A stretch of DNA of 64,000 bases from Sphaerisporangium perillae (GTDB lineage Bacteria > Actinomycetota > Actinomycetes > Streptosporangiales > Streptosporangiaceae). The notes under the pieces are model-generated. The model had not been told where the DNA came from. It saw only the letters and a list, made by a program, of their open reading frames with translations, and searched no databases. The translations under genes and the position numbers were made by a program. Location of the stretch: the NCBI RefSeq assembly GCF_023276435.1, contig NZ_JALLPO010000001.1, positions 341,601-405,600 on the forward strand, written 5' to 3'. Positions within the stretch are counted from its first letter, which is position 1, and every line of letters starts with the position of its first letter. Positions 24,077 through 40,894 of this stretch are shown here, piece by piece.

Positions 24077-24109
24077 CGCACGCCTCCCCTCTCGTCCCGC
24101 CCCGTCCGC

Positions 24110-25329: not shown

Positions 25330-28125
25330 TCATCGCCTGCCGGAGGCGGCCAGCAATTCGGCGACATGGTGGGCTGTCCGGTCGGTCAACTGGGCGATCT
25401 GGGTTCGGCAGCTGAACCCGTCGGCGAGCACGACCGTTTCGGCTGAGGCACCTCGAACCTGGGGGAGCAACACCTGTTCGGCCGCCGCCACCGACACCTC
25501 GTAGTGCCCGCGTTCAAAACCGAAGTTGCCCGCGAGACCGCAGCAGCCGGACGCCAGTTCGATGTTGTCCACACCGGCTCGGCGCAGAAGCTCGCTGTCG
25601 GCCGCAGTCCCCGAGTCGGCGTGCTGGTGGCAATGGGTCTGGCTCAGTGAACGCACGTCCAGTCGCGATGGTTCGTAGTCGCTGTCAACCAGAAGCTCGG
25701 CGAAAGTGGTGACACGACCTGCGGTTCGTCGTGCGGCGGCCGTGTCCAGCAAGTTGGGCAGATCCGACCGCAGTGCCGCGGTGCAGCTCGGCTCGAGACC
25801 GACGATGGGCATGTCCGGGAGGCGTTCCACGGCGGCGACGGTTCGAGCCCCGACGCGGCGGGCCTTGCCGAGCTGGCCGGTGGTCAGCCAGGTCAACCCG
25901 CAGCACTGGGTTCCCGGCGGCACGTGCACCTGGAACCCGGCGGATTCGAGCACCTCGACTCCCGCACGCAGCACTTGAGGACTGAAGTGATTGTTGAACG
26001 AGTCCACCCACAGCAGCACCGGCCGCCCTGACGGCCCTTGCGGACGGCTGCGGAACCAGCGCAGAAAAGTCTGGCCGGCGAACGAAGGAATGGGGCGCTG
26101 CGGGGCGATGCCACCGAGCCGTTTCAGCGCGGGCGCCAACGCCGAGTGGGTCACGGCGTTGGCCAGCCGAGGTGTCCGCCCCGCCAGCCGCGACCAGAAC
26201 GGAAGCCAACCCATCGAGTAGTGCGACAACGGGCGTAGCCGGTGCCGATAATGGTGGTACAGGAACTCGGACTTGTAGCTCGCCACGTCCACACCGACCG
26301 GACAGTCGGAGCTGCATCCCTTGCAGGACAGGCACAAATCCAGTGCGTCCCGGACTTCGCGGGAACGCCAGCCGTTGGTGATCACCTCGCCCTGCAGCCG
26401 GGCGCGGCCACGGGTGGAGTCACGTTCGTTTCGGGTCACCCGGTAGCTGGGGCACATCACCGATCCGGTCGCGGCGGTCGTCCGGCATTTGCCGACGCCG
26501 ACACAGCGGCGGGTCGCCCGGGCGAAATCCCCACCGTCCTCGGGAAAGCGGAGCACCGTCGCCAGCGGCAGCGGAACACGCTGAGGCGAGACGCGCAAGT
26601 CCTGATCGGACCGTCGCGGATGGACGACGACCCCCGGGTTGAGCCGGCCCTCGGGATCCCAGATCTGCTTGAAACGCGCCATCAGGCCGATGGCCTGCGG
26701 GCTGTAGACCAGATCGAGAAACTCCGAGCGCGCCTGGCCGTCGCCGTGTTCGCCGGACGGCGAGCCGCCGTGCGCCGCGACCAGCCGAGCGGCCTCGGCG
26801 AGAAACGCCCGGAACCGGGTCGTTCCCGCCTCGGTGCTGAAGTCGAAGTCGATCCGGACGTGCAGACAGCCTTCGCCGAAATGCCCATAGACGGCGCCGC
26901 GAAGCGCGTACCGGTCCAGCAGGGCCACGAAATCGCGCAGGTAGGCGCCGAGATTGTCCGGTGGGACGGCGGCGTCCTCCCAGCCGGGCCATGCCTCCGA
27001 TCCGTCGGGCAGCCGCGTCGCCAGGCCGGCTCCGTCCTCCCGGATGCTCCACAGCGCACGTTGGTCATCGGGGGCGACGGCCACATACGTGCCGCGGAAA
27101 CCCGCTGTGTTCTCCGCAGCGGACACCAGTTCCGCCGGATCGTCGGTGTCGATCTCGGCGAACAACCACGCGTCGCCCTCCGGAAGCCGGTCGAGTGCCG
27201 CGGGCCGGGCGACCATCTGGGTCAGGCTGCGGTCCAGGCCTTCCAACGTCATCGGCGCGCACTTGATCAACGCGGGCACGGCGTCCGCAGCGGCGAACGA
27301 GTCCGCGTATCCGAGCACGACCAGGGTACGCGTCGCCGGCCGTGCCACCAGTTCGAGGGTCGCCGAGAGCACCACCACGCACGTGCCCTCGGTGCCGACC
27401 AGCGCACGGGCGAGGTCGAACCGGTTCTCCGGCAACAGATGCTCGAGCGCGTAACCCGATACCTGCCGCGGAAACCGGCCGAATTCGGTCCGCAGAGTGC
27501 TCAGGTCGCCCAGCGCGAGGTCCCGGGCGGCCGCGAGGACGCGCCCGCGTTCGCCGCCCTCGGCGATCGCGTGATCGAGTTCCGCGCGGGTCATCGGGCC
27601 GACGGTCAGTATCGTCCCGTCATAGGTGAGCACTTCGAGTTCGAGGACGTTGTCGCTGGTCTTTCCCCAGGCCAAGGAGTGCGAGCCGCAGGCGTTGTTG
27701 CCGATCATCCCGCCGATCGTGCACCGCCCGTGCGTGGATGGATCCGGCCCGAATATCAAGCCGTGCCCTGCGACCGCGGACTGCAGGTCGTCCAGCACAA
27801 TGCCCGGTTCGACGCGCGCGGTCCGCGCGTCCGGGTCGATCGACAGGATCCGCGAGTAATGCCGGGAGAAATCCAGCACTACACCCTCGCCTACAGCCTG
27901 GCCTGACGTGCTGGTTCCGCCGCCGCGAGACGTGATCGACGCGCCATGGCGACGGCACGCGGCCACCGCGGCGATCACATCATCACGGTCGAGCGGAAAC
28001 ACGACCGCCACCGGGATCCGGCGGTAGTTGGAGGCGTCCGCCGAGTACAGGGCGCGGGCGCCTACGTCGGCGGCCACCTCGCCCCGGACGGCGGCCCGCA
28101 GATCGGCGATCAGTTCAGTACTCAT
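25330..28125 (-). CDS. D-2-hydroxyglutarate dehydrogenase, YdiJ-like FAD/Fe-S enzyme
   Basis: Large two-part oxidoreductase of 931 residues. The N-terminal half is an FAD-linked oxidase: ITSRGGGTSTSGQAVG and THGRCTIGGMIGNNACGSH bind FAD. The C-terminal half has a ferredoxin-like segment (LCLSCKGCSSDCPVGVD) and two CCG-type blocks (GTQCCGLTW, SGCCGLAGNFGF). This order matches E. coli YdiJ, shown to oxidise D-2-hydroxyglutarate to 2-oxoglutarate with electrons going to a carrier. The upstream neighbour makes D-2-hydroxyglutarate from 2-oxoadipate and overlaps by four bases (ATGA), so the two form a two-step unit. D-lactate or glycolate oxidation is the alternative for the family. Confidence 0.85.
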   Translation of the reverse strand: MSTELIADLRAAVRGEVAADVGARALYSADASNYRRIPVAVVFPLDRDDVIAAVAACRRHGASITSRGGGTSTSGQAVGEGVVLDFSRHYSRILSIDPDARTARVEPGIVLDDLQSAVAGHGLIFGPDPSTHGRCTIGGMIGNNACGSHSLAWGKTSDNVLELEVLTYDGTILTVGPMTRAELDHAIAEGGERGRVLAAARDLALGDLSTLRTEFGRFPRQVSGYALEHLLPENRFDLARALVGTEGTCVVVLSATLELVARPATRTLVVLGYADSFAAADAVPALIKCAPMTLEGLDRSLTQMVARPAALDRLPEGDAWLFAEIDTDDPAELVSAAENTAGFRGTYVAVAPDDQRALWSIREDGAGLATRLPDGSEAWPGWEDAAVPPDNLGAYLRDFVALLDRYALRGAVYGHFGEGCLHVRIDFDFSTEAGTTRFRAFLAEAARLVAAHGGSPSGEHGDGQARSEFLDLVYSPQAIGLMARFKQIWDPEGRLNPGVVVHPRRSDQDLRVSPQRVPLPLATVLRFPEDGGDFARATRRCVGVGKCRTTAATGSVMCPSYRVTRNERDSTRGRARLQGEVITNGWRSREVRDALDLCLSCKGCSSDCPVGVDVASYKSEFLYHHYRHRLRPLSHYSMGWLPFWSRLAGRTPRLANAVTHSALAPALKRLGGIAPQRPIPSFAGQTFLRWFRSRPQGPSGRPVLLWVDSFNNHFSPQVLRAGVEVLESAGFQVHVPPGTQCCGLTWLTTGQLGKARRVGARTVAAVERLPDMPIVGLEPSCTAALRSDLPNLLDTAAARRTAGRVTTFAELLVDSDYEPSRLDVRSLSQTHCHQHADSGTAADSELLRRAGVDNIELASGCCGLAGNFGFERGHYEVSVAAAEQVLLPQVRGASAETVVLADGFSCRTQIAQLTDRTAHHVAELLAASGRR

Positions 28126-29450
28126 ACCGGTGGCAGTCCAAGCTTCTTGCGGGCATGTCGAAGCGACTGTCGCTGTTGCGCCTCATACAGTTCGAACGGA
28201 TCCAGGACCTGCCTGCCGATCATCTCCGACAGCCGGCCCTCGTCGTAGGCGGTGGCGGCCTGGGTCGAGTCCCGAGTGCCCTCGTCGGTGAGGTTGGACT
28301 GGAAGATCCCGGCTGCGGAGCGGGGCAGGAAGTCCTCGTACACAATCGGAGTCGCGGTGATCGTGCCGTCGTCGAGAACGGCTTGATACGTGAAGTACGC
28401 CAGCCCCTGGTCAGCGAGCCCGCGCTCGTCCGCAGGCAAGTGCGCGCGCCACACGCCCTCCGCGACGTCCTGCCTGGACTTGCCGGACTCGGTCACGAGC
28501 CGGTCGGTCTCCGCCACCATGCGGTCGTACAGCGCCCTGCCTTCGCGCGTCAAAGCGACGCCACGGGCCTCGACTTCCCCGAAACGAACGCGAAGTGTGC
28601 CGTCGGTGACCGAACCGTCGGCCGCGCGGAACTTCCGGGGTTCGGCCAGCGCCCGGAACGACGTCTGTCGCAACAGGACATCCGGCCCGGCCCACCGTGG
28701 CGGGCCCTGGATCTGGTCGATCATGGTGATCCCGCGTTCGCTCATCCGCCGGTACAGCTCGTCGATGTCCAACACCCTTGGCGTCAGGTGGTTGACGTGC
28801 GTGCTGCGCACGCCGCCGATGTCGGCGGCCACGGCAGAAATCCGCTCCAGTTCGGCGTACCACGTCTGGTCCACAGGCTCCGGGGAGAGTTCGAACGCTC
28901 CGACGGCCAGGTGGAGGAATCGCTCGGCCGCGGGATCATCGAGTTCGCCGTTCCGCTCGGCCCGCGCTGCCAGCTCCAGCAGCTCGGGAGAGAACAGCTC
29001 CCGGCGCTCCAGGAAGGCTTCCAGCCGGGCCTGCAGGTCCGCGTCGAAGAAGCGGCGGTCGGCAGTGGTGAGCATCGAGGTGAAGACCCGGAACGGGTTG
29101 CGCGCCAGCTCATCCGCCGCGATCGGGCGGAAGGCGGTGGACACCACCGGCACCGAACTGCTGGCGGCGTCCCGCAGGTCGTAGAAGCCGACCGGATGCA
29201 TGCCCAGCGCCGCGAAGATCTGCGCTGCCTGACGCATCTCCCGCGGACTGCCCACCCGGATCGCACCGTGTCGCTCAGCGGTCACCCGGCTGATGTCGCC
29301 CAAGCGCATGGCGTCCGCGTCACGCCGCAGCACCTCCTGGTTGATCTCGCCGGCCACGTCGAGCAGCGTCGTGTACGCGGGCACCTCGGCGCCGTACATA
29401 TCGGACAGACGAACGGCGAACGCGGCCCGCAGCTGCGAAGTCTGAGGCAT
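28122..29450 (-). CDS. hglS: 2-oxoadipate dioxygenase/decarboxylase, HglS family (DUF1338)
   Basis: Non-heme iron enzyme of 442 residues of the HglS/YdcJ family, which turns 2-oxoadipate into D-2-hydroxyglutarate with O2 and loss of CO2, a VOC-like fold. Key residues are present: HGAIR (His61 and Arg65, matching the His/Arg spaced by four that bind iron and substrate), STHVNHLTPRVLDIDELY (His218/His221 region) and FGEVEARGVALT (Glu292). The downstream YdiJ-like gene uses the product. In Pseudomonas these steps end lysine breakdown; no lysine-pathway enzyme is seen here, and the other neighbours point to a heterocycle as source. Confidence 0.88.
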   Translation of the reverse strand: MPQTSQLRAAFAVRLSDMYGAEVPAYTTLLDVAGEINQEVLRRDADAMRLGDISRVTAERHGAIRVGSPREMRQAAQIFAALGMHPVGFYDLRDAASSSVPVVSTAFRPIAADELARNPFRVFTSMLTTADRRFFDADLQARLEAFLERRELFSPELLELAARAERNGELDDPAAERFLHLAVGAFELSPEPVDQTWYAELERISAVAADIGGVRSTHVNHLTPRVLDIDELYRRMSERGITMIDQIQGPPRWAGPDVLLRQTSFRALAEPRKFRAADGSVTDGTLRVRFGEVEARGVALTREGRALYDRMVAETDRLVTESGKSRQDVAEGVWRAHLPADERGLADQGLAYFTYQAVLDDGTITATPIVYEDFLPRSAAGIFQSNLTDEGTRDSTQAATAYDEGRLSEMIGRQVLDPFELYEAQQRQSLRHARKKLGLPPV

Positions 29451-29462
29451 CGGTTTTTCCTT

Positions 29463-30626
29463 TCAGTGCCACCGGACAGCGGACCGTGGTGGGGGAGTCT
29501 GTTCACTGCGGCCGGACACCAGGGCCTCGCCGTCGACGAGCACCGCCGCGATACCGGGAAGATCGCCCACCGCGAACGACTCCAACGCGTCGTTGGCGTC
29601 GGAGCCGGTGATCGGACCGAGTACGACCAGGTCGGCAGGCCGGCCGGGCGCCAGCACACCGGTGTCCAGCCTGTGGGCCGCGGCGGTCACGCCGGTGGCC
29701 GCAGCGACCGCGTCGGCGGGATCGACTCCGCAGACCGACGCGAGGAAACAGATGTTGCGGAGCATGCCCCGCGGGATCACGCCGGTCCCGCCGGGGGTAT
29801 CGGTCCCCAGCGTGAGCCTGGCCAGCTCGTCCCGGGCATGCAGTTCGTCGACCACGACCCGGGTGGCGCGGTAGTTCATCGAACTGCACACCTCCAGCGC
29901 GCAGGTCGTCGTGCGGACCACCGCACGGATGTCGTCGTCGCGCATCGGGATCGGCCCGCCGGAGATGTGCCCGACGATGTCCGGGCCGACCGCCGCCACG
30001 ATCTCGTGGCCGGCTACCCGGCTCGATCCGGACCGCGAGACGCCGCCGGAGTGCATCTTGACGGTCATCCCGCGCTCGTGTGCCCAGGCGACATACCGGA
30101 CCGCTTCGCCGTCGTCCAGCCGGTTCCAGTCGTAGAAGATGAACTTCAACTGGTCGACGCCCTCGGCGGCCAGCCGGTCGAAGTGCTGCTCGGTCATGCC
30201 TGGCACAAGCAGCGCCGTGCCCGCGCTGACCTTGACCCCGGATGGGCGCATCCGGCCGGTGGTGTGCTTGGACACGATCGCGATGCTGACCACCAGCTCG
30301 GGGGTGAGCTGGTCGAACGCCAGCCCGGGAATGTGCAGCTCTCCTGCGGACACCATCGAGGTGGTGCCGCCATGCAGGTAGTTGTGGATCCAGCCGATCG
30401 CGTCCTGGGCGGGAGTCCACTCGCCGAAGGTCGGGTGCACGTGCCCATCGACGAGCCCAGGGATCACCGTGAGACCGCCCGCGTCGAGGACACGGTCTGC
30501 CTGGTGCGTGCCGCCGATGGCGGCGATCACGCCGTCCTCGATGAGCATGGAGGTGTCCCGCGCCACCGGTGCACCGGGCAGTCCGGTGGCCAGCGTGCCG
30601 ATGTTGTCGATCACGATCGAGGTCAT
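29463..30626 (-). CDS. Enamidase-type cyclic amidohydrolase
   Basis: Amidohydrolase-superfamily enzyme of 387 residues. The metal ligands are visible: HVH at 62 and 64, a candidate carbamylated Lys161 (DQLKFIFYD), His192 (VKMHSGG), His220 (IVGHISGGPIP) and Asp276 (LGTDTPGGTG). From the metal site to the C-terminus (GTGVIPRGMLRNICFLAS, DTGVLAPGRPADLVVL, AVGDLPGIAAVLVDGEA) it resembles the Eubacterium barkeri enamidase of nicotinate fermentation, which opens 6-oxo-1,4,5,6-tetrahydronicotinate. Here the likely substrate is the matching tetrahydro-pyridone acid that leads to 2-oxoadipate. First gene of the leftward operon with hglS and the ydiJ-like gene. Confidence 0.85.
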   Translation of the reverse strand: MTSIVIDNIGTLATGLPGAPVARDTSMLIEDGVIAAIGGTHQADRVLDAGGLTVIPGLVDGHVHPTFGEWTPAQDAIGWIHNYLHGGTTSMVSAGELHIPGLAFDQLTPELVVSIAIVSKHTTGRMRPSGVKVSAGTALLVPGMTEQHFDRLAAEGVDQLKFIFYDWNRLDDGEAVRYVAWAHERGMTVKMHSGGVSRSGSSRVAGHEIVAAVGPDIVGHISGGPIPMRDDDIRAVVRTTTCALEVCSSMNYRATRVVVDELHARDELARLTLGTDTPGGTGVIPRGMLRNICFLASVCGVDPADAVAAATGVTAAAHRLDTGVLAPGRPADLVVLGPITGSDANDALESFAVGDLPGIAAVLVDGEALVSGRSEQTPPPRSAVRWH

Positions 30627-30671
30627 GCGTGGCTCCGCGAGATGAGAAGATGGTTCGTATAAACTATTAAC
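30627..30671. promoter_or_regulatory. Divergent control region of the catabolic island
   Basis: Only 45 bases separate the amidohydrolase and gntR start codons. The AT-rich core TTCGTATAAACTATTAAC (30654-30671) stands out in GC-rich DNA and must hold promoters for both directions. Related AT-rich tracts precede the LLM-oxidoreductase gene and the importer operon. A GntR site here is inferred. Confidence 0.5.
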
Positions 30672-31370
30672 ATGAGCGACGAGGGTGGAATCGGCGTGGT
30701 TCGTGCCAATGGGGTGGCGTACGTCCGGCCCACCACCGCGCACCAGGCAGTTCTGGTCGAACTGCGCAAGATGGTGATCAACGGCGAGCTGGCGCCCGGC
30801 ACCGCGATCCGGCAGGACGAGATCGCGGAACGGTTCAATGTGAGCCGAGTGCCGGTGCGTGAGGCGCTGAAGATGCTCGAGGGCGAAGGGCATGTCACCT
30901 ACCTGCCGCACCACGGGTTCCGTGTCACGCAGCTGACCATCGCCGAGCTCATCGAGGTCTACGACATGCGCGAATGGCTCGAGACAGGCCTGGTCCGCGC
31001 CAGCGTCCCGCGGCTGGGTCGCGCCGAGCTCGCCACGATGCAGGACGCGATGGCCCGGATGGCGCAGGCCGCCGCCGACTCCGACGTGACCACGGTCAAC
31101 GAGCAGAACCGGCGGTTTCACTTCCAGCTGCTCGAGCCGAGCGGGCTGCACCGCGCGGTGCACACCGTGAGCCAGCTCTGGGACACCACCGACCCGTACC
31201 GGCAGCTCTACTTCGGCGATCAATTCAACGCCGAGACGGTCAACGACGATCATCAGGCGATCCTCGAAGCCGCGTTCGCCCATGACGTCGGCCAGACCGT
31301 GCGCCTGCTGAACCTGCACCGCGGCGATTCGGTGGCGCACCTGCGCAGCCTGCTGGGAGACGGAAAGTGA
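30672..31370 (+). CDS. GntR-family regulator (FadR/FCD type)
   Basis: Regulator of 232 residues: winged helix with IAERFNVSRVPVREALKMLEGEGHVTY and a helical FCD ligand domain with the metal-binding style residues Asp97 region (IEVYDMREWLETG), RFHFQLLEPSG and NDDHQAILEAAFAHD. FCD regulators usually sense an organic acid that is the substrate or an intermediate of the pathway they control. Position at the divergent centre of the island makes it the probable pathway-specific repressor. Confidence 0.85.
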   Translation: MSDEGGIGVVRANGVAYVRPTTAHQAVLVELRKMVINGELAPGTAIRQDEIAERFNVSRVPVREALKMLEGEGHVTYLPHHGFRVTQLTIAELIEVYDMREWLETGLVRASVPRLGRAELATMQDAMARMAQAAADSDVTTVNEQNRRFHFQLLEPSGLHRAVHTVSQLWDTTDPYRQLYFGDQFNAETVNDDHQAILEAAFAHDVGQTVRLLNLHRGDSVAHLRSLLGDGK

Positions 31371-31840
31371 CCGTCAGCCCGCAGATTCAGGACGCGTTGA
31401 CCGAGCTCGGCTTGGAGTTGCACGCGGGGCTCGGCGTGCGCGGCGCCTACGCCCCGACCCGCCAGGTCGGCACCATGTTGTGGGTGTCGGGTGTAACCGG
31501 TCGAAGCCCGGCCGGTCCGGGGGTCGTCGGCGTCGTGGGGGAGGGCGTGACGGTCGAACAGGCCAGGGAAGGTGCCCGGCAGGCGGCGGTGAACCTGCTC
31601 GCGGCCATCGAATCGACGGTCGGGCTGCATAGGGTGACCGCGCTCGGCCATCTGCGTGGGTACGTCCGGGCGGTGGCTGACTTCGATCGGCATCCAGCCG
31701 TGATCGACGCGGCTTCGGAGGTCCTGGTCCGTGCGCTCGGCCCGGAGATCGGCGCGCACGCGAGGACCGCGCTCGGCGTCGCCTCGCTGCCCGGCGGTGC
31801 GGCTGTGGAGCTGGATCTGGTCGCCCATGTGACGGCCTAG
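31367..31840 (+). CDS. RidA/YjgF-family enamine/imine deaminase
   Basis: RidA-fold protein of 157 residues, longer than classical RidA (about 130). The C-terminal ARTALGVASLPGGAAVELD has the conserved Arg that binds the carboxylate of 2-imino acids. Family members hydrolyse enamines or imines to ketones and ammonia. In this island it would finish ring opening by turning 2-iminoadipate into 2-oxoadipate. GTGA overlap with gntR. The TAG stop lies in a CTAG that is also the stop of the convergent CoxG-like gene. Confidence 0.82.
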   Translation: MTVSPQIQDALTELGLELHAGLGVRGAYAPTRQVGTMLWVSGVTGRSPAGPGVVGVVGEGVTVEQAREGARQAAVNLLAAIESTVGLHRVTALGHLRGYVRAVADFDRHPAVIDAASEVLVRALGPEIGAHARTALGVASLPGGAAVELDLVAHVTA

Positions 31841-32466
31841 CTCCGCGCCGCGTGCAGGCGGACGGACTGCTGGTCCAACGCTCGTCGGCAGGCGAACCCG
31901 AGCAGGAAGGCGCCCAACGCGGCGCCGGCCACCGGTGCCAGCACAGCGAACAGATTGATCGCCGGTCGGTCGTGCCCGGCGCTGAACTGGTGCGGGTCTG
32001 CTGATCGGGCGCCGGTCATCACGTCGGCGAACTGCTGTTCCAGCCGGACGGCGAACTGCCGCACGATCCGGCCGCTGACCTTCTCGATCATGCCCGCGCC
32101 GTACTGGGCGACCTTGCCGGTCAGATCGACGTCGGTGCGGACGTCCACAGTGGTGCGTTCTTCGGCAGCGGCTGCCAGCCTCACCGTGACCACGGCTGTC
32201 AGCCCGCCTTGGCCCAGATGATCCCTGGCTGATGCCCGTATCGCCAGCGTGTGCGTGCTGGGGTCGACACTGGTGACCTCGGCCGCGCCCGCGAACCGCA
32301 GGTTCACCGGTCCGACCCGGACGCTGATGTGGCCGCGGTAGACGTCGCCTTCGTGGCTGTCGAGCTCGGCACCGGGGACGCAGGACACCAGCCGCTCGAT
32401 GTCGGTCATCAGCGGCCAGGCCGTGGCCAGGGACGCTGGGATATCGAACGTGTTGACCAGCCGCAC
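31837..32466 (-). CDS. CoxG-like SRPBCC protein with C-terminal membrane anchor
   Basis: About 209 residues. The SRPBCC/CoxG domain spans residues 1-150: VNTFDIPASLATAWPLMTDI, then LVSCVPGAELDS, and VDVRTDVDLTGKVAQYGAGMI. It ends with a single hydrophobic segment (LFAVLAPVAGAALGAFLLG). CoxG anchors carbon monoxide dehydrogenase to the membrane or carries quinone; relatives accompany many xanthine-dehydrogenase-type hydroxylases. GTG start with GGAGGGAG upstream; the longer frame is not protein-like. Its stop codon is shared, as CTAG, with that of RidA on the other strand. Confidence 0.82.
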   Translation of the reverse strand: MRLVNTFDIPASLATAWPLMTDIERLVSCVPGAELDSHEGDVYRGHISVRVGPVNLRFAGAAEVTSVDPSTHTLAIRASARDHLGQGGLTAVVTVRLAAAAEERTTVDVRTDVDLTGKVAQYGAGMIEKVSGRIVRQFAVRLEQQFADVMTGARSADPHQFSAGHDRPAINLFAVLAPVAGAALGAFLLGFACRRALDQQSVRLHAARS

Positions 32467-32510
32467 CCGGTACTCCCTCCGCGAACCTCGCCTTGGCGAG
32501 GAGCCTCTGC

Positions 32511-32530
32511 TACTTTTTATAAAGAATACA
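32511..32530. promoter_or_regulatory. AT-rich promoter/operator region before the LLM oxidoreductase
   Basis: TACTTTTTATAAAGAATACA contains the palindrome TTTATAAA and sits between the divergent CoxG-like and oxidoreductase genes. Its TTTATAAAGAA resembles the complement TTTATACGAA of the tract before gntR. Candidate GntR site and -10 region; not decisive. Confidence 0.35.
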
Positions 32531-32542
32531 CTTGGAGGCTGC

Positions 32543-33544: not shown

Positions 33545-33569
33545 AACCCCAGGACAGCGGCATTTTCCC

Positions 33570-33597
33570 AGCGCCGGGCAGCTCGGCTCCCGGCGCT
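33570..33597 (+). terminator. Hairpin terminator after the LLM oxidoreductase gene
   Basis: Perfect nine-base arms AGCGCCGGG and CCCGGCGCT with a ten-base loop, 25 bases past the stop. The rest of the 357-base gap up to the importer genes holds an AT-rich promoter region but no further gene that I can support. Confidence 0.65.
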
Positions 33598-33854
33598 CCG
33601 CCGGCACTGCGCTCAGCCCGGTCAACGCCGGTGGCTCCGGACCAGATACCGCTCCCGGTGCCTCGGCAGCCCCTGGTGGCTGACCGCCCCACCGACTCTC
33701 CCAGGTCCGCCGAGGCGGTGGGCTGGGAGCGGGTGCTCGTCAGCCCTGGCTTTTTGGTGGGGGTCGCCTGCGCTGCCGCCGCAGTTGGTGTGGTTCTCGC
33801 GGGCAGAAGGAGTGCTGTTACCTGCTCGTTACGTGCGGTATGTCGCATTCCAGA

Positions 33855-33897
33855 GTAGGAACGTCTACTTTATTAAATCTCGCCGTGCCTAGGAGGT
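33855..33897 (+). promoter_or_regulatory. Promoter region of the importer/hydroxylase operon
   Basis: GTCTACTTTATTAAATCT (33863-33880) is the only AT-rich stretch in the gap and lies just before an AGGAGG and the substrate-binding-protein start. It shares the ACTTTWTWAA look with the tract before the LLM gene, which suggests common control of the three transcription units. Confidence 0.4.
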
Positions 33898-33901
33898 CCT
33901 C

Positions 33902-34879
33902 ATGCGCCACCCCCGTCTCGTTTCCCTAGCGGCCGGACTGGCGGTTTTCCCATTGCTGCTCACCGGCTGCGGGGGCAGCAACTCCGGATCGGGCGGTACC
34001 ACCACCAAGCTGAGCATCTCCGCGACCGGCACCGACAGCCTGCCGTTCATGGCGATCCTCCAGGTGGGCATCGACAAGGGCTGGTTCAAGGAAGCCGGTC
34101 TGGACGTCGACCTCTACAACGGCGGTGGCGGCGGCAACACGCTGCGCGTGGTGACCACCGGCGACGCGGACATGGCCATCGCGGGCAACACGTCGGTGCT
34201 GCTGGCCGCCCGGCAGGGCGGGTCGAACCTGAAGATCGTCGCGCCGTGGTTCCAGGTCAACGACTTCTACTGGATCGCGCCGCCCGGCCGCTCGGCCACC
34301 GGCGCGAAACTCGGGTTCTCCTCGGCCGGTTCGTCCACCGAGTTGCTGGTCAAGGGCCTGGAGAAGAAGCTCGGCACGACGTCACAGGCTGTGGGCACCA
34401 TGGGCGACAACTGGACGGCGGCCAAGGCCGGCCAGGTCACCGCAGGCTGGGCGATGCACCCGTTCGTCACCGACAAGCAGGTCAAGGAAGGCGCCAAGGT
34501 CCTGGTCGCGGCCCGCGATCAGCTGGGTGACACACCCGCGGACCTGGTGGCGGTGAACACCGGCTACGCGGCCGACAACCCGGACAACATCAAGGCTTTC
34601 TTCACGGTGGCCGAACGCCTCAACAAGTGGGTCGTGGACAACACCGACGAGGCGGCCAAGACGCTGGCCCCGCTGGTGAAGGTGTCGCCGGAGGTCATGG
34701 CGCAGGCTCTGAAGGACACGCCGGAGCTGGCCAAAGCCTATTCGCTGAAAGTCGACGCCCAGGCGCTGAACAACCTGTCCACGCTGATGGTCGCCGCCGG
34801 TCAGCTCACCGAACCGGTCGACTGGGCCAAGACGATGGACCAGCAGTACCTGCCGGAGAACGCCCGCGCCGCCCTCTGA
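33902..34879 (+). CDS. ABC importer substrate-binding lipoprotein (NMT1/SsuA/TauA type)
   Basis: Extracytoplasmic binding protein of 325 residues. A lipoprotein signal peptide ends at the lipobox LLTGC (Cys23). The fold is that of the nitrate/sulfonate/taurine/thiamine-precursor group: SLPFMAILQVGIDKGWFKEAGLDVDLYN at the start of the mature protein and GDADMAIAGNTSVLLAARQG. This group binds small organic acids and aromatic carboxylates. It opens a seven-gene rightward operon with the transporter and the Mo hydroxylase, so it probably captures the pathway substrate. Confidence 0.88.
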   Translation: MRHPRLVSLAAGLAVFPLLLTGCGGSNSGSGGTTTKLSISATGTDSLPFMAILQVGIDKGWFKEAGLDVDLYNGGGGGNTLRVVTTGDADMAIAGNTSVLLAARQGGSNLKIVAPWFQVNDFYWIAPPGRSATGAKLGFSSAGSSTELLVKGLEKKLGTTSQAVGTMGDNWTAAKAGQVTAGWAMHPFVTDKQVKEGAKVLVAARDQLGDTPADLVAVNTGYAADNPDNIKAFFTVAERLNKWVVDNTDEAAKTLAPLVKVSPEVMAQALKDTPELAKAYSLKVDAQALNNLSTLMVAAGQLTEPVDWAKTMDQQYLPENARAAL

Positions 34880-34899
34880 CGAGAAGACAAGGGGTTCTC

Positions 34900-35688
34900 A
34901 TGCAAGGTATCCACCTCAACGACGTACACGTCCACTTCGACCATCCCAGTGGCATCACCATCGCGGTGGACGGTGTCACCCAGCAGGTGCCGCCCCGCAG
35001 CTTCGTGTCCATCGTCGGTCCCAGCGGCTGCGGGAAGTCCACACTGCTCGCGGTGATCGCCGGCCTGCAGCCGGCCACCTCCGGCAGCGTGGACGTCAAC
35101 GGGCGGCGCGTTACCGGGCCGGACCGTGACATCGGCGTGGTGTTCCAAGAGGACTCCACGCTGCCGTGGCGAAACGTCAGGGAGAACGTCGAGTTCGCCA
35201 TGCAGATGGCAGGCGTGTCCAAAGGTGAGCGTGCGGCCAAGGCGGCTGCGGCCATCGAACTCGTCGGACTGAAAGGGTTCGAGCACTCCTACCCGGCGAC
35301 GTTGTCCGGCGGCATGCGCCAGCGTGTGGCGCTCGCCCGTACCCTCGCGCTGCAGCCCGGGGTGGTGCTGATGGACGAGCCGTTCGCCGCGCTGGACCAG
35401 CAGACCCGGATCTTCCTGGGCGCCGAGGTGCGCCGGATCTGGGAGCAGACACATCAGACAGTCCTGTTCGTCACCCACGACATCTCCGAGGCGATTCTGC
35501 TCAGCCAGCAGATCTGGGTGATGTCCTACCGGCCGGGCCACGTCATCGACGTGATCGACATCGACCTGCCGGACGAGCGCGACGCCTCGATCGTGTCCTC
35601 CCCGCGGTTCAACGAACTGCACAACCGGGTCTGGGCCTCGCTGCAGAAGGAATCCATGCGCGGGTTCCAGGACGTGGAGACGGCGTGA
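34900..35688 (+). CDS. ABC importer ATPase (SsuB/TauB type)
   Basis: Nucleotide-binding subunit of 262 residues: Walker A IVGPSGCGKSTLLAVIAGL, Q-loop GVVFQEDSTLPWRNV, signature LSGGMRQRVALARTLA, Walker B VVLMDEPFAALDQQTR and switch His in LFVTHDISEA. Its stop overlaps the next permease start by one base. Confidence 0.92.
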   Translation: MQGIHLNDVHVHFDHPSGITIAVDGVTQQVPPRSFVSIVGPSGCGKSTLLAVIAGLQPATSGSVDVNGRRVTGPDRDIGVVFQEDSTLPWRNVRENVEFAMQMAGVSKGERAAKAAAAIELVGLKGFEHSYPATLSGGMRQRVALARTLALQPGVVLMDEPFAALDQQTRIFLGAEVRRIWEQTHQTVLFVTHDISEAILLSQQIWVMSYRPGHVIDVIDIDLPDERDASIVSSPRFNELHNRVWASLQKESMRGFQDVETA

Positions 35689-36518
35689 TGGCGGTGCGGA
35701 TCGAGCCAAGGCAGGAGGTGCCTGCCAAGCACCTGACCCGGCCGCGGCGTGCTCGATGGCGTCCCTCCCAGGGTGTTCGCAGTGCGGCGGCGAGTGCGGT
35801 GCTGCTCGCCGTGCTGTTCGTACTTGTCCAAATCGGTGTGGCGACCGGCGCACTGAGGCAGACGGGCCTGCCGGTGCCGACCGACGTGGTCGGCAGCACC
35901 CTTGGGTTGCTGGGCACCGGCGCGTTCTGGAGCGACTTCGGCCGGACCTGCCTGGAGATCGGGGCGTCCATTGCGGCCGGTTGTGCCCTCGGTTTCGGCG
36001 CGGGCATCGTGTTCTGGAAACTTCCGTTGCTGGGCCGGGTGTTCGAGCCGTATCTGGTGTCGTTCTACGCCGTGCCGCTGGTGTTGTTCTACCCGATGAT
36101 GATCGTTCTGGTCGGCATCAACGCCGGGTCGATCATCATCCTGTCGTCGGTCATGGCGGCTATTCCGCTGGCGCTCAACACCCGCACCGGCCTGCAGGGC
36201 ATCCGGCCGGTACACCTCAAACTGGCCAGGACGCTGCAGTGCAACGCCAGGCAGACGCTGTTCAGCATCGCCATCCCGGCGGCGGCGCCGATGATTGTGG
36301 CCGGGATGCGGATGGCTGTGGTGTACGCGTTGATCGGGTCGATCGCGATGGAGTTCACCACCGCGCAGAACGGCTTGGGCTACCGCATCCGGTACCTGTA
36401 CGAGACTTTCGACAACAAGACCATGTTCGCCTACATCCTCGTCGTGCTGATCCTGTCGGTCGTGCTGACCGTCCTGATGGCGCTGGTCGAGCGAGTGCTG
36501 CTGAGGGGGCGTCGATGA
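35688..36518 (+). CDS. ABC importer permease 1
   Basis: Membrane permease of 276 residues (SsuC/TauC type) with about six segments. The cytoplasmic coupling loop reads TGLQGIRPVHLKLARTLQCNARQTLFSIAIPAAAP (EAA-like; only the key parts quoted: LKLARTLQCNARQTL). The N-terminus has an extra basic stretch of ~35 residues. It overlaps permease 2 by four bases (ATGA). Two different permease genes imply a heterodimeric channel, while most relatives use a homodimer. Confidence 0.88.
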   Translation: MAVRIEPRQEVPAKHLTRPRRARWRPSQGVRSAAASAVLLAVLFVLVQIGVATGALRQTGLPVPTDVVGSTLGLLGTGAFWSDFGRTCLEIGASIAAGCALGFGAGIVFWKLPLLGRVFEPYLVSFYAVPLVLFYPMMIVLVGINAGSIIILSSVMAAIPLALNTRTGLQGIRPVHLKLARTLQCNARQTLFSIAIPAAAPMIVAGMRMAVVYALIGSIAMEFTTAQNGLGYRIRYLYETFDNKTMFAYILVVLILSVVLTVLMALVERVLLRGRR

Positions 36519-37255
36519 CCAGGCTCACCAAGCTTCGTGAGTCACAATTCGCCGGCGCCGCGGTTGTGGCCTTGGTGGCGTCGGCGATCTGGCAGGTCTC
36601 GTCAGGCCTCAGCTTCGTCATCCCGTCGCCTGCGGCCACGGCGGAGGCGTTCGTGCAGAACTTCGCCGACCCTAGGTACCTGAGTGACATAGGGGAGACG
36701 GCGCAGGCAGTCGCGCAGGCGTTCGTCATCGGAACCGTGCTCGGTGGTGCGATCGGACTGCTGCTCGGGTTGTCGGCCGCGGCCCGCACCTGGCTGGAGC
36801 CACTGCTGATCGCCTTCAACGGCGTGCCGAAGATCGTGCTGTACCCGGTGCTGCTGCCCATTTTCAGCCTGGGCGGCTCCAAGATCGTGATGGGCGTGCT
36901 CTTCGCGCTGTTCCCGGTGCTGATCAACGTCGCGGTGGGCGTGCGCACTATCCCGCCGGTGTACTGGAAGCTCGGCCGGACCGTGCAGGCCTCCAAATGG
37001 CAACTGTTCGTGCACATCCTGCTGCCGGCGATCCGGCTTCCGCTGCTGACCGGTGTCCGGCTCGCGATCAGCCTGGCGGTGGTGGGCGTGGTGCTTTCGG
37101 AGTTCTTCGCCACCCGCTTCGGGCTGGGCCGTGTGGTGCTGCAGGCCTACAGCCACGGTGAATACGCGCAGATGGTCAGCACGATCTTGCTGCTGATCCT
37201 GGTCGCCTTCACGATGTCGGTGCTGCTGTGGCGGCTGGAACGGCGCGTCCGGTGA
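36515..37255 (+). CDS. ABC importer permease 2
   Basis: Second permease of 246 residues with the same topology; the coupling loop contains YWKLGRTVQASKWQLFVHIL. Sequence is clearly different from permease 1, so this is not a recent duplication. GTGA overlap with the hydroxylase large-subunit gene ties transport and first catabolic step to one mRNA. Confidence 0.88.
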   Translation: MTRLTKLRESQFAGAAVVALVASAIWQVSSGLSFVIPSPAATAEAFVQNFADPRYLSDIGETAQAVAQAFVIGTVLGGAIGLLLGLSAAARTWLEPLLIAFNGVPKIVLYPVLLPIFSLGGSKIVMGVLFALFPVLINVAVGVRTIPPVYWKLGRTVQASKWQLFVHILLPAIRLPLLTGVRLAISLAVVGVVLSEFFATRFGLGRVVLQAYSHGEYAQMVSTILLLILVAFTMSVLLWRLERRVR

Positions 37256-39552
37256 CTCTCATCGGCACGTCCGTGCCGCGCAGGGAGGACGAGCGTCTCC
37301 TTGCCGGCAAAGGGTCGTTTCTCGCTGACCAGGCGCAGGGCGCATATCACGTAATGTTCGTCCGTTCGGACATCGCCCACGGCGAACTGCGGCATATCGA
37401 CGTCTCCGCCGCGCAGGACATGCCGGGTGTCGTCGGTGTCTTCACCGCCGACCAACTCGGCTTGCGTGACAATTACATCGCGCCGTTGCACGAGCCCCAT
37501 CCGGAGTTCGTCGCGGCCACTGCTTTCGCCATGGCTGATCAACGGCTGGCGCTCATGGCCGACCGGCGTGTGCACTATGTCGGTCAGATCGTGGCGGCCG
37601 TCGTTGCTTCGGACCGGTATCTCGCCGAGGACGCGGCGGAACTCGTGAACGTCGGTTACGCCGCGTTGCCGGTCGTTGTCGAGATGGAAGACGCGCTCGA
37701 CGCCGACGCGCCCGTGCTGCACGAACAGCTTTCCAGCAACGAAGCCGCTTCGCTGTCCTATACCTTCGGCGACCCGGATTCGGCTCGCGCCCAAGCCGCG
37801 GTGACCGTGGCCGAGACGTACCGGATCGGTCGGCATGGCGCTGTGCCGTTGGAATGCCGCGGGGTGCTCACCCGGATCGACCATCGCACGGGCGAGGTGG
37901 ACGTGTGGACCTCCACCCAGATCCCGCACATGGTCCGGCGCGGGATCTGTGCCGCCACCGGATGGACGACGGACGCGGTACGGGTGCATGTCCCTGACGT
38001 CGGCGGCGGCTTCGGCACCAAGGCCAACGTGTACCCCGAGGAAGTCCTGGTGCCGCTGCTGGCGCGGCTGACCGGCCGGGACGTGGTGTGGGTCGAGGAC
38101 CGCCATGAACACCTGACCGCCGCCGCCCAAGGGCGGGACCAGGTCCACCGCTGCGTGCTGTCGGTGGACGCCGACGGCCGGATCCTCGCGCTGGAGGACG
38201 ACTTTCTGGTCAACATCGGCGCGGGCAGCCTGTGGGTCGCCGGGATCATCGCGAACACCGCGATCCACATCCTCGGGCCGTACCGCGTGCCCGCCGCGCG
38301 GGTCAGCGGGAAAGGGATCTTCACCAACAAGGCGATCGTCGCGCAGTACCGCGGTGCCGGCCGGCCCGAAGCGTCGTTCGTGCTTGAACGCAGCCTCGAT
38401 GCCGCGGCGCGCCGGCTGGGGCTCACGAACGTCGAGATCCGGCGGCGGAACCTGTTGACCGCGCAGGACATGCCGTATCCGCAGCCGTTGCCGTACCGGG
38501 ACGGGGTGCCGATCGTCTACGACGGCGGCGACTACCGGGCGTGCCTGGACGCCGCCTTGGAACTGTTGCCCACCAGCGTGGTGGCGCAGGAACAAGCCGC
38601 GCATCCGGAGCTGCTGATCGGCCACGGCGTCGGCTGCTACTTGGAGGCGACCGGGCGCGGTCCTTATGAGGCCGCGAAGATCAGCGTCACGCCGCAAGGC
38701 CGGATCGAGGTGATGACGGGCGCGGCATCGGCCGGACAAGGCCATGAGACCAGCTTCGCGCAGGTCGCCGCACAAAGCCTCGGCCTGCCCATGGAGGCGG
38801 TCCGGGTGTTGCCCACCGACACCGGATCACTCGCGCACGGAATCGGGAGCTTCGGCAGCCGATCCGCCGTGCTGGCAGGCAATGCGATCGCTCAGACGGC
38901 CGCGCTGCTCGTGGACAACGGCAGGCGCCGGTTCGCCCAAGCGACCGGCGCGGATCTGGCCGAGGTCGGCTACCGCGAAGGGATCTTCCAAGCGCCTGGC
39001 CGTGATCCGGTCGGCTGGCGCGAACTCGCGCAGCTCGGTGCGCCAGGAAAAGCGCTGGAAGGCGAGCCGCCGCTGTACGCGGCGAGCATGTACCGCTGCG
39101 ACACGGTGACGTGGACCATGGGCGCCCACGCCACTGTGGTCGGTGTGCATCCGGGGACGGGGATCGTGCGGGTGCTGCGTTATGCGGTGGCCCACGAAGG
39201 GGGAGTCGAGATCAACCCGCTCGTCGTGGAAGGCCAAGTGCTCGGCGGTGTGGCACAGGGAGTCGGAGGGACGTTGTACGAGGAGTTCCGCTATGGGGCC
39301 GATGGCAGCCCGCGGTCGACGACGTTCGCCGAATACGGTCTGCCGGGCTCAAACGAGGTTCCGGAGGTGCTGATCCGGCATCTCGGCGTGCCCACGGACA
39401 ATCCGCTTGGGGTGCGCGGCGCGGGGGAAAGCGGCACCATCGCGGTCGCCGCGGCTGTGGCCGCCGCGATCGACGCGGCGACCGGCTGCACGCACGTCAC
39501 CGCGACCCCCATCGCCCCTCGAACAATCAAGACCGCCCTTGAGGCCACATGA
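37252..39552 (+). CDS. Molybdenum hydroxylase large subunit (xanthine dehydrogenase/CoxL family)
   Basis: Molybdopterin-cytosine-dinucleotide subunit of 766 residues. Mo-cofactor contacts are visible in VGGGFGTKANVYPEE, AQYRGAGRPEASFVLER and the active-site GAGESGTIAVAAAVA with its catalytic Glu. The true carbon monoxide dehydrogenase signature AYXCSFR is absent (AQYRGAGR instead), so this is a hydroxylase of the form II / heterocycle type. Family members hydroxylate C-N ring carbons with water as oxygen source, for example nicotinate, quinoline and picolinate dehydrogenases. The order L-M-S with ATGA couplings makes one complex. Confidence 0.9.
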   Translation: MTLIGTSVPRREDERLLAGKGSFLADQAQGAYHVMFVRSDIAHGELRHIDVSAAQDMPGVVGVFTADQLGLRDNYIAPLHEPHPEFVAATAFAMADQRLALMADRRVHYVGQIVAAVVASDRYLAEDAAELVNVGYAALPVVVEMEDALDADAPVLHEQLSSNEAASLSYTFGDPDSARAQAAVTVAETYRIGRHGAVPLECRGVLTRIDHRTGEVDVWTSTQIPHMVRRGICAATGWTTDAVRVHVPDVGGGFGTKANVYPEEVLVPLLARLTGRDVVWVEDRHEHLTAAAQGRDQVHRCVLSVDADGRILALEDDFLVNIGAGSLWVAGIIANTAIHILGPYRVPAARVSGKGIFTNKAIVAQYRGAGRPEASFVLERSLDAAARRLGLTNVEIRRRNLLTAQDMPYPQPLPYRDGVPIVYDGGDYRACLDAALELLPTSVVAQEQAAHPELLIGHGVGCYLEATGRGPYEAAKISVTPQGRIEVMTGAASAGQGHETSFAQVAAQSLGLPMEAVRVLPTDTGSLAHGIGSFGSRSAVLAGNAIAQTAALLVDNGRRRFAQATGADLAEVGYREGIFQAPGRDPVGWRELAQLGAPGKALEGEPPLYAASMYRCDTVTWTMGAHATVVGVHPGTGIVRVLRYAVAHEGGVEINPLVVEGQVLGGVAQGVGGTLYEEFRYGADGSPRSTTFAEYGLPGSNEVPEVLIRHLGVPTDNPLGVRGAGESGTIAVAAAVAAAIDAATGCTHVTATPIAPRTIKTALEAT

Positions 39553-40412
39553 AGCCCGCAGCAGTCGACTACGTCCGCGCGGAGTCCGTCGCGCAGGTTC
39601 TGGACCTGCTCGCGGACGCCGAGGACGCCCGGGTTATCGCCGGTGGGCAGAGCCTGATCACGATGATGAACCTGCGCCTGGCCAGGCCACGTCTGCTGGT
39701 GGACATCATGGGCCTGGCCGAGCTCGCGCGCACGTTCGACGATGGCGACTCGATGATCCTCGGCGCGCTCGTCCGGCACCGGACGTTGGAGACGGATCCG
39801 TTGCTCACGCATCGCCTCCCGCTCGCCGCCGATGCCGTACGGCACACCGGGCACGTGGCCATCCGCAACCGGGGGACGCTCGGCGGAGCCCTCGCCTACG
39901 CCGACCCGTCGGGGGAGCTCCCGCTCGTCGCACTTGTCAGCGACGCGACCATCCATCTGGAATCCCGTGACCGCGGCCGTCGCGAGGTGCGTGCCGAGGA
40001 CTTCTTCCTGTCGTACTACACAGCCGACGTCGAAGCCGACGAGCTGCTCACCTGGATACGCATGCCGGTCCAACCCCCCGGTCACGGCTGGGGATTCACC
40101 GAACACGCCCAGCGGCACGGGGAATACGGCATCGCCGGGGCCGGCGCGTTGGTCACCACCGACGAGCAGGGCAGAGTCACCAGTGTCCGTGCGGGTCTTC
40201 TGCACGCCGCGGACCGCCCCTTGCTGGTCAGCGTGGAAGCGGATGTCGTCGGCGAGTCACCCTCGCCCGAGGCATGGTCCCGGATCGCTCGCTCCTGGGT
40301 GCGCGCGGCAGAACCGGTCGAGGACCCCGACTACGTGCGCGCCGTCGCCGCGGACGCGCTCAGCACCAGTCTCATCCTGGCCCACGGCCGTGCTCGGGAG
40401 GAACGACAATGA
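39549..40412 (+). CDS. Molybdenum hydroxylase FAD subunit (CoxM family)
   Basis: FAD-binding medium subunit of 287 residues. RVIAGGQSLITMMNLRLARP and AIRNRGTLGGALAYADPSGELP are the two flavin-contact motifs. It passes electrons from the iron-sulfur subunit to an acceptor, possibly a membrane quinone with help of the CoxG-like protein. Confidence 0.92.
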   Translation: MKPAAVDYVRAESVAQVLDLLADAEDARVIAGGQSLITMMNLRLARPRLLVDIMGLAELARTFDDGDSMILGALVRHRTLETDPLLTHRLPLAADAVRHTGHVAIRNRGTLGGALAYADPSGELPLVALVSDATIHLESRDRGRREVRAEDFFLSYYTADVEADELLTWIRMPVQPPGHGWGFTEHAQRHGEYGIAGAGALVTTDEQGRVTSVRAGLLHAADRPLLVSVEADVVGESPSPEAWSRIARSWVRAAEPVEDPDYVRAVAADALSTSLILAHGRAREERQ

Positions 40413-40894
40413 CCGACCATGTCATCCGCTTAGCTGTCAACGACAAGCAGATCGAGGCGACCGTGCCCGCCCGCCTGACGCTGGCGGACTTCCTACGCGA
40501 TCGCCTCGGCCTGACCGGCACCCACCTCGGTTGCGAACATGGCGTGTGCGGGGCCTGCACAGTCCTGGTGGACGAACGAAGCGTGCGCGCCTGCATAACC
40601 CTGGCCGTGCAAGTCGACGGCTGTTCGATCACGACGGTCGAAGGCCTGACCGGGCCACTCGCCGACCGGTTGCGTGCCGCGTTCAGCCGCCGCCACGGCC
40701 TGCAATGCGGCTTCTGCACGCCGGGTTTCCTCGTCACGGCAACGGAGATGATCCAGAACGACTCCCGCCCGAAGCCGTTGACCGCCGACTACGTCCGGGA
40801 AACCCTGTCGGGCAACACATGCCGGTGCACCGGATACCAAGGCATCGTCCAGGCAGTGCTGGACGCCGAGGCGCACGACCACATCACCGGTTGA
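40409..40894 (+). CDS. Molybdenum hydroxylase [2Fe-2S] subunit (CoxS family)
   Basis: Iron-sulfur subunit of 161 residues with both clusters: plant-type GCEHGVCGACTVLVD plus a later Cys, and the alpha-helical CGFCTPGFLVTA with CRCTGYQGIVQA. Last gene of the importer/hydroxylase operon. No Mo-cofactor maturation gene (XdhC/MocA-like) is in the window. Confidence 0.93.
   Translation: MTDHVIRLAVNDKQIEATVPARLTLADFLRDRLGLTGTHLGCEHGVCGACTVLVDERSVRACITLAVQVDGCSITTVEGLTGPLADRLRAAFSRRHGLQCGFCTPGFLVTATEMIQNDSRPKPLTADYVRETLSGNTCRCTGYQGIVQAVLDAEAHDHITG

Follow-up and report, generated by a model that had tools for sequence, protein, structure and literature searches.

In the reductive nicotinate pathway, a pyridine ring is hydroxylated at C6 by a molybdenum (Mo) enzyme and reduced by a ferredoxin-linked Fe-S reductase. 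In Eubacterium barkeri and Azorhizobium caulinodans, the ring is partially saturated and hydrolytically opened by an enamidase (PMC9304392). The studied genes for the breakdown of picolinate (pyridine-2-carboxylate), pic, are Proteobacterial, as in Alcaligenes faecalis JQ135 and Bordetella, and their route passes from the PicB monooxygenase and the PicC decarboxylase by way of 2,5-dihydroxypyridine to fumarate; picolinate degradation has also been attributed to Arthrobacter, Streptomyces and Rhodococcus (PMC10142695). In Rhodococcus, Nocardia and Nocardioides, F420H2-dependent enzymes of the luciferase-like monooxygenase (LLM) type transfer hydride to the electron-poor nitroaromatic ring of picrate for growth, F420 having a standard potential of -340 mV, and the remaining actinobacterial LLM-type F420 enzymes were listed as of unknown role in a 2021 review (PMC8498797). 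Judging by titles and the beginnings of abstracts in the open-access literature, a body with most subscription papers outside it, we found no described bacterial route from picolinate to 2-oxoadipate; seven papers that mention the two compounds deal, to go by their titles, with metabolism in humans, animals, plants or fungi. Here, we analysed a 64,000-nucleotide stretch of Sphaerisporangium perillae DNA (the window) that carries a block of 14 genes at 25330-40894, and we put at roughly 0.7 the probability that this block encodes an aerobic but reductive, F420H2-dependent route by which a pyridine-2-carboxylate, in all likelihood picolinate, is turned into 2-oxoadipate.

In this proposed route, an ABC importer would take up pyridine-2-carboxylate, and a three-subunit Mo hydroxylase, together with a CoxG-like protein, would convert it to 6-hydroxypicolinate. 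The F420H2-dependent LLM would add hydride and a proton to the ring to give 6-oxo-1,4,5,6-tetrahydropicolinate, whose cyclic enamide the enamidase would hydrolyse to 2-aminohex-2-enedioate / 2-iminoadipate. The imine would yield 2-oxoadipate and ammonia, either spontaneously or with the help of RidA, after which HglS would form D-2-hydroxyglutarate and CO2 and a YdiJ-type enzyme would form 2-oxoglutarate, with regulation by a GntR-FCD protein. In other hosts, the last two steps would be replaced by oxidative decarboxylation to glutaryl-CoA with glutaryl-CoA dehydrogenase, or by a thiamine diphosphate (TPP) enzyme with a semialdehyde dehydrogenase. The reactions and the substrate are predictions that build on gene identities, conservation, the swap of terminal enzymes and a link to F420, all of which are read from the sequences. 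An initial annotation of this DNA had put forward the same order of steps, and it is supported by the kinship of the enamidase, the F420 type of the LLM, CofH in host genomes, F420 genes within clusters, the active-site residues of HglS and the co-occurrence of the genes.

The route would be a case of reductive N-heteroaromatic catabolism, a known kind, with F420-dependent ring reduction as its new element. It would have in common with the reductive nicotinate pathway a Mo hydroxylase acting at C6, the partial saturation of the ring and its hydrolytic opening, for which both would use members of one enamidase family. In contrast to that pathway, the reductase would be an F420-type LLM instead of a ferredoxin-linked Fe-S enzyme, and the carboxyl group next to the nitrogen would lead to 2-oxoadipate instead of 2-formylglutarate. 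The hosts of the window-type cluster are aerobic, unlike those of the E. barkeri-type route. Neither a ferredoxin-type 6-hydroxynicotinate reductase nor 2-formylglutarate enzymes turned up in the family scans of the 14 genes, no search having been aimed at them. With the pic pathway, at most the first step would be common, its presumed product being 6-hydroxypicolinate: PicB monooxygenase, PicC decarboxylase, a PicD or ring dioxygenase and a maleate enzyme are absent from the results of the same scans (in which Pic proteins did not serve as queries), and the one amidohydrolase of the window is of the enamidase type. The likeness to the picrate enzymes, drawn from their published description, lies in LLM-type hydride addition to an electron-poor aromatic ring, which is a nitroaromatic there and would be a pyridone ring here, accompanied by an enamidase and 2-oxoadipate enzymes.

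The amidohydrolase was rightly assigned to the enamidase type in the initial annotation, to judge by its match to the solved enamidase 2VUN (E 9e-80, residues 2-384, 383 residues), the next solved protein following at 1e-6. In alignments, H62, H64, H192, H220 and D276, which we take to be metal ligands, are kept and Lys replaces Glu at the remaining site, so that HHKHHD occupies the presumed metal-ligand columns. We considered whether this fourth-strand Lys sets the subfamily apart and rejected the idea, since Lys is also common among other enamidase relatives. Ninety sequences of at least 300 residues were kept for comparison, and a midpoint-rooted tree was built from 48 rows chosen from these 90 plus the window, omitting L045 (a second copy of L072_16683) and without 2VUN. 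A 100/100 branch separates the clostridial enamidases from a group of 26 rows, which holds every LLM-linked enamidase together with 10 that lack this linkage; the actinobacterial LLM-linked enamidases lie in a set of 14 (100/99), outside which a diverged second copy in locus L072 falls. This second enamidase (44%) and an LLM (39%) flank a homocitrate/isopropylmalate-synthase-like gene at L072:15148-20368, next to an aldehyde dehydrogenase gene; the group lies some 5.5 kb away from the first enamidase and perhaps represents a sister pathway for another ring.

The predicted ring reductant is F420H2. The six best solved relatives of the window LLM in the PDB are all F420-dependent Mer enzymes, from 9e-41 (1z69) to 2e-30, and TIGR03842 and Mer are its best NCBIfam matches, although it stays below the cut-off of each LLM group shown. 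The suggestion in the initial annotation that the LLM is probably F420H2-dependent is thereby strengthened, as it is by the F420 genes found within two clusters (see below). RutA in uracil breakdown and PyrA in pyridine breakdown are LLM ring-opening monooxygenases, and the combination of LLM, RidA and amidohydrolase recurs in pathways of this type. The window LLM might then be an FMN-dependent, O2-using ring-opening monooxygenase, with the amidohydrolase acting on an acyclic amide in a Rut-like pathway with RidA; moreover KpiC, an amidohydrolase distantly related to enamidase (28%), has been reported as a ring-cleaving dioxygenase (PMC7356986). We consider this improbable, because solved LLM relatives without F420 in their names match far more weakly ('Luciferase family protein' at 3e-12, the others at 2e-5 and weaker), because family scans of the cluster gave no match to a flavin reductase, and because of the F420 biosynthesis genes in Hyphomicrobiales clusters.

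Do hosts of the enamidase make F420? CofH (TIGR03551, over cut-off) was found in 18 of the 25 host genomes of enamidase loci. Of the 15 hosts whose locus shows the LLM, 14 have it, as do both hosts of the cut loci L063 and L065; in the window's own host (G000) the match reaches E 5.6e-163. F420 is patchy in Proteobacteria. All three Proteobacterial hosts with an LLM have CofH, versus two of eight (L076, L080) without an LLM in the fetched stretch. At L074 (2038-6153), from a Hyphomicrobiales metagenome-assembled genome (MAG), FbiC, CofC and CofD genes lie between a piece of a Mo-hydroxylase large subunit (33%) and the enamidase and LLM genes, FbiC consisting of two radical-SAM stretches plus CofH_C. 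At L083 (980-6896), from another Hyphomicrobiales MAG, the FbiC, CofC and CofD families, an F420 ligase and a second LLM gene are found inside the cluster. F420 biosynthesis genes were not seen in the third Alphaproteobacterial LLM locus, L071, on its 8.5 kb contig. These genes may be kept within the Hyphomicrobiales clusters because the pathway needs the cofactor.

Two further observations concern enamidase loci. Directly after the enamidase, L077 (11228-12196) and L078 (11183-12157), whose hosts lack CofH, carry a gene of the ornithine cyclodeaminase/mu-crystallin family (assigned by scan in L078 and by clustering in L077), members of which can reduce cyclic ketimines; these loci may use a different reductant or substrate. 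The L080 contig is titled as a Klebsiella pneumoniae MAG, carries an enamidase 60% identical to that of the window and belongs to a bin with CofH, and its title is probably a binning or naming error.

The strongest new argument for 2-oxoadipate as the predicted product of the core comes from the enzymes that lie beside it. The window HglS, the sole PF07063 match in the genome, scores 719 bits with NF050083 (cut-off 600) and 388 bits with a second model, NF049974, below its cut-off of 550. In the alignment to Pseudomonas putida HglS (6w1g), the conserved residues are the stretch ERHGAIRVG, one His within HVNHLTPR and the Glu in RFGEVE, which by hand count cover H70, R74, H226 and E294; of these, H70, H226 and E294 are presumably the metal-binding HHE triad. 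In D-lysine breakdown, YdiJ carries D-2-hydroxyglutarate on to 2-oxoglutarate. P. putida HglS, which converts 2-oxoadipate to D-2-hydroxyglutarate in lysine breakdown, was active on 2-oxoadipate alone among the 2-oxo acids tried, and requires Arg74, which contacts the distal carboxylate (PMC7286885). In the window, the 2-oxoadipate would come from ring opening and not from lysine.

The HglS/YdiJ end named in the initial annotation thus stands for the window, with HglS over its cut-off and its specificity residues kept, but it is one of at least three ends, and unrelated disposal enzymes are interchangeable beside the same core. HglS and YdiJ flank the core in the window and in a Nonomuraea contig (L060), and HglS in L068; in L061, L063, L065, L066 and L082 the end module is a fused E1 2-oxo-acid dehydrogenase with a glutaryl-CoA-dehydrogenase-type gene, and in L070 a TPP-dependent enzyme with an aldehyde dehydrogenase nearest to 2-oxoglutarate-semialdehyde dehydrogenase. 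The acyl-CoA dehydrogenase of the E1 loci has 'Glutaryl-CoA dehydrogenase' 3sf6 as its best solved match (6e-210), and eight of the nine next-best also bear this name (one as 'putative'). Of the 11 loci of at least 66% identity (window included; L062 and L067 cut), 9 carry one of these three ends next to the enamidase. In 23 further mycobacterial loci, E1 is present in 21 and the glutaryl-CoA-dehydrogenase-type gene in 19, and HglS, confirmed by PF07063, in exactly the two without E1. Because 2-oxoadipate is common to HglS, to an E1 feeding glutaryl-CoA dehydrogenase and to a 2-oxo-acid decarboxylase, it is the probable product, even though family matches do not fix the substrates of the TPP-dependent enzyme, the aldehyde dehydrogenase or E1. 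The enamide must then open to 2-imino- or 2-oxoadipate, which would place the carboxyl group on the carbon next to the nitrogen, as in 6-oxo-1,4,5,6-tetrahydropyridine-2-carboxylate; the unsubstituted chain argues against other ring substituents. By established chemistry, two electrons above this tetrahydro compound stands 6-hydroxypicolinate, and before that picolinate.

These ends also bear on three other explanations. The block could hold a reductive nicotinate route as in E. barkeri, its enamidase making 2-formylglutarate; the enamidase family is the same (2VUN), and E. barkeri and Azorhizobium likewise saturate the ring in part and open it hydrolytically (PMC9304392). We regard this as very unlikely, given that HglS with its conserved R74 points to 2-oxoadipate and not 2-formylglutarate, that E1 and TPP enzymes of the 2-oxo-acid type form the other ends, and that the window enamidase lies in a supported clade apart from the clostridial ones, 2VUN itself being outside the tree. 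An equally slight chance is that a heterocycle cluster merely adjoins an independent lysine-type HglS/YdiJ pair: this pair lies on the opposite strand from the importer and the Mo hydroxylase, and some carriers have no end module beside the core, but YdiJ, HglS and enamidase genes form one minus-strand run with a 4-base overlap and a 12-base gap, and the recurrence of end enzymes beside the enamidase, with either HglS or E1 in each of the 23 further mycobacterial loci, also speaks against chance neighbours. Finally, YdiJ and glutaryl-CoA dehydrogenase are lysine-breakdown enzymes. A lysine or pipecolate pathway, in which F420 would take up the electrons from dehydrogenation of a cyclic imine or of 6-oxopipecolate and the enamidase would open the ring on the way to 2-oxoadipate, would fit this and the role of HglS in lysine breakdown (PMC7286885), and LLM enzymes can also run as F420-dependent oxidising enzymes (PMC8498797). 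It seems an unlikely alternative, as family scans of the genes in the window cluster gave no match to a transaminase, a pipecolate oxidase or a piperideine dehydrogenase, and as the solved proteins closest to the Mo hydroxylase have aromatic N-rings as substrates.

The best solved matches of the Mo-hydroxylase large subunit are 6-hydroxypseudooxynicotine dehydrogenase 7dqx (446 bits) and quinoline 2-oxidoreductase 1t3q (383), followed by CO dehydrogenases (300-339), a putative oxidoreductase (309), xanthine (124) and nicotinate (122) enzymes; the score of the solved nicotinate enzyme, which is split in two chains, is not strictly comparable. A firm grouping with purine or CO enzymes, named in the initial annotation as contrary to its proposal, was not seen, 7dqx and 1t3q being best, but CO dehydrogenases come next. 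The subunit differs from form I aerobic CO dehydrogenases: in the window and its orthologs it reads AQYRGAGRPEA at the active-site loop, where form I enzymes presumably have the Cys-bearing AYRCSFR, and NF040766 and TIGR02416 stay below cut-off. Among the 55 matches kept (open reading frames of fewer than 600 residues or with an inner stop were left out), the orthologous cluster large subunits are 55-91% identical to that of the window and all others at most 40%; placement relative to other enzymes was judged by the order of bit scores and this gap in identity.

The block is not a chance arrangement, since the gene set recurs in other genera. A genome-collection scan with a three-row enamidase alignment gave 147 relatives, of which the best 80 loci were taken: 24 at 55-94% identity, 51 (L084-L134) at 34-44% and five weak ones. 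In 10 of 12 actinobacterial loci of at least 66% identity the LLM adjoins the enamidase, and in the other two the contig breaks off 0.6-0.8 kb upstream of the enamidase; none of the 51 loci of 34-44% shows an LLM (at E <1e-20; some loci are short). The Mo large subunit is present in 8 of the 12, the other four being cut before it, and the combination of enamidase, LLM, Mo hydroxylase and importer is found again in further actinobacterial genera. Within one mycobacterial genus, 27 of 248 sampled genomes, the centre included, have the enamidase at E <1e-100; 23 loci newly taken from these carriers (L175-L197) all contain CoxG, LLM, binding protein, ATPase, both permeases, three Mo subunits, enamidase (in two pieces in L197) and RidA, counting after removal of matches that overlapped a better match by more than half. 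GntR is present in 22 of them, the fetched stretch of L188, which lacks it, beginning at RidA. The lack of co-occurrence that the initial annotation had listed as contrary evidence is thereby excluded. A FUSC-family gene lies between the Fe-S subunit and the enamidase in 22 of these 23 loci and in L082 (8943-10004); fusaric acid is a butylpicolinate, and the FUSC family is fusaric-acid-resistance-like.

The closest relative of the block is the Nonomuraea contig L060, with 13 of 14 proteins at 86-98% identity, and ten other sampled genomes of the window's own genus contain no full-length enamidase, their best match being a 70-residue piece (E 6e-9). The simplest reading of this distribution is that the block was probably acquired by recent horizontal transfer. 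Plasmid relatives are more distant: 36.4-41.3% identity for the enamidase (20 of 25 records listed), at most 34.4% for the LLM (15 of 211 listed) and at most 39.6% for the Mo large subunit (25 of 1030 listed), from which searches one named kdhC gene was taken. A scan of viral contigs with the enamidase gave 22 pattern matches, with no relative among them.

Several points weigh against the proposed route. The case for picolinate as its substrate rests on the logic of the carbon skeleton. Georgenia, host of L068, has the LLM and no CofH match, only two matches to the CofD family, which is also matched in E. coli. Eight Proteobacterial loci have a related enamidase (55-60%) and no LLM in the fetched stretch, and the LLM label requires four changes on the enamidase tree; the idea that all near enamidase relatives are LLM-linked was rejected. 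Among NCBIfam models, the large subunit scores highest with the CO dehydrogenase group NF040766 (629 bits, cut-off 950) and next with glyceraldehyde dehydrogenase (568 bits, cut-off 790), and in the Alphaproteobacterial LLM loci the large subunits, two of them pieces, are just 33-39% identical to that of the window, a nicotine-pathway enzyme being as close (36%). The YdiJ-like protein has its FAD and Fe-S domains and NF049975 as best NCBIfam match, but at 482 bits against a cut-off of 1350. The glutaryl-CoA dehydrogenase, E1, TPP and aldehyde dehydrogenase proteins are below the cut-off of every NCBIfam model shown, and no E2 or E3 is among the scanned neighbours of E1. No 2-oxoadipate enzyme was recognised in the stretches fetched for L064 and L069. 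HglS is present in 8 of 20 host genomes searched, among them the E1/glutaryl-CoA dehydrogenase hosts G407, G412 and G417, the TPP host G416 and G410 (host of L064); the exclusion between HglS and the other ends therefore holds for the cluster and not for the genome. A genome search of G415, host of L069, found no HglS. RidA, finally, was not found in L060, L064, L068 and L069; the Rid family assignment made in the initial annotation stands (9bk9, Rid family protein PA0814, E 4e-21, with the stretch HAR.A.GVA.LP in common), but the RidA step would be optional.

Identities and position of the 14 genes, as given in part by the initial annotation, including its GntR regulator, were confirmed by a coding filter and by Pfam and NCBIfam matches (Table 1); the CoxG-like gene between RidA and LLM is an addition. 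Eleven of the 14 pass the filter, with third-position GC of 0.82-0.91, compared with 0.91-0.98 for most open reading frames (ORFs) listed upstream of the block. The ABC ATPase, second permease and Fe-S subunit were identified by family matches, their longest ORFs beginning too far upstream, and the starts of the enamidase and LLM genes, both shorter than their longest ORFs, were picked by eye. The regulator, RidA, LLM, the four importer genes and the three Mo-hydroxylase genes share the plus strand.

Table 1. Genes of the block in window coordinates, with predicted functions.
Feature	Position	Strand	Evidence
YdiJ-type FAD/Fe-S D-2-hydroxyglutarate dehydrogenase (predicted)	25330..28125	-	FAD_binding_4, FAD-oxidase_C, Fer4, CCG; NF049975 482 bits
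HglS, 2-oxoadipate dioxygenase/decarboxylase	28122..29450	-	NF050083 719 bits; 6w1g alignment; PF07063
Enamidase-type amidohydrolase (would open 6-oxo-1,4,5,6-tetrahydropicolinate)	29463..30626	-	PDB 2VUN E 9e-80
GntR/FCD regulator	30672..31370	+	PF00392, PF07729
Rid-family protein (putative 2-iminoadipate hydrolysis)	31367..31840	+	PF01042 30 bits, cut-off 27; PDB 9bk9
CoxG-like protein, Mo-hydroxylase accessory	31837..32580	-	PF06240 E 1e-12; ORF limits, true start probably inside
LLM oxidoreductase, F420-dependent type (putative two-electron reduction of 6-hydroxypicolinate)	32543..33544	+	PF00296; TIGR03842, Mer; 1z69
ABC importer binding protein, NMT1/SsuA type	33902..34879	+	PF09084
ABC importer ATPase	34900..35688	+	PF00005 in ORF 34627-35688; start from L060 ortholog length
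ABC importer permease 1	35685..36518	+	PF00528
ABC importer permease 2	36515..37255	+	PF00528 in ORF 35756-37255
Mo hydroxylase large subunit (putative C6 hydroxylation)	37228..39552	+	PF02738, PF20256, PF01315; PDB 7dqx, 1t3q
Mo hydroxylase FAD subunit	39549..40412	+	PF00941
Mo hydroxylase [2Fe-2S] subunit	40409..40894	+	PF01799, PF00111 in ORF 40274-40894; start from overlap with FAD-subunit stop

A shared GntR operator was dropped as evidence: upstream of the enamidase/GntR, LLM and binding-protein genes we saw AT-rich stretches and no convincing motif. Next to the cluster and on the same strand end CoxE-like VWA and CoxD-like AAA genes (22694-24976), which have higher third-position GC (0.98 and 0.95) and are possibly the host's Mo-hydroxylase maturation genes. 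Farther away, at 47204-49078, there is a BTAD-domain (SARP-type) regulator; with a thioesterase and a pyridoxal-phosphate-dependent enzyme nearby, it may mark the border of a natural-product cluster.

In conclusion, and with somewhat less confidence than for the block itself, we think it probable that a widespread, horizontally moving pathway of aerobic actinobacteria dearomatises 6-hydroxypicolinate with F420H2 and reaches 2-oxoadipate, with at least three host ends and, in two Hyphomicrobiales loci, F420 biosynthesis genes; among natural heteroaromatic rings, this would perhaps be the first known case of breakdown with F420. Picolinate is an isomer of the pyridine vitamin and a chelator made by animals and microbes, F420 is a rare cofactor, and 2-oxoadipate can be used by ordinary metabolism. 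If true, the pathway would give F420 a natural role in the ring catabolism of actinobacteria and add a new ring-reducing reaction. It would also account for the use of picolinate by Gram-positive bacteria, for which no genes are named in those parts of the literature that we covered. The gene block is present in many soil actinobacteria, and both questions may be tested with a handful of purified proteins.

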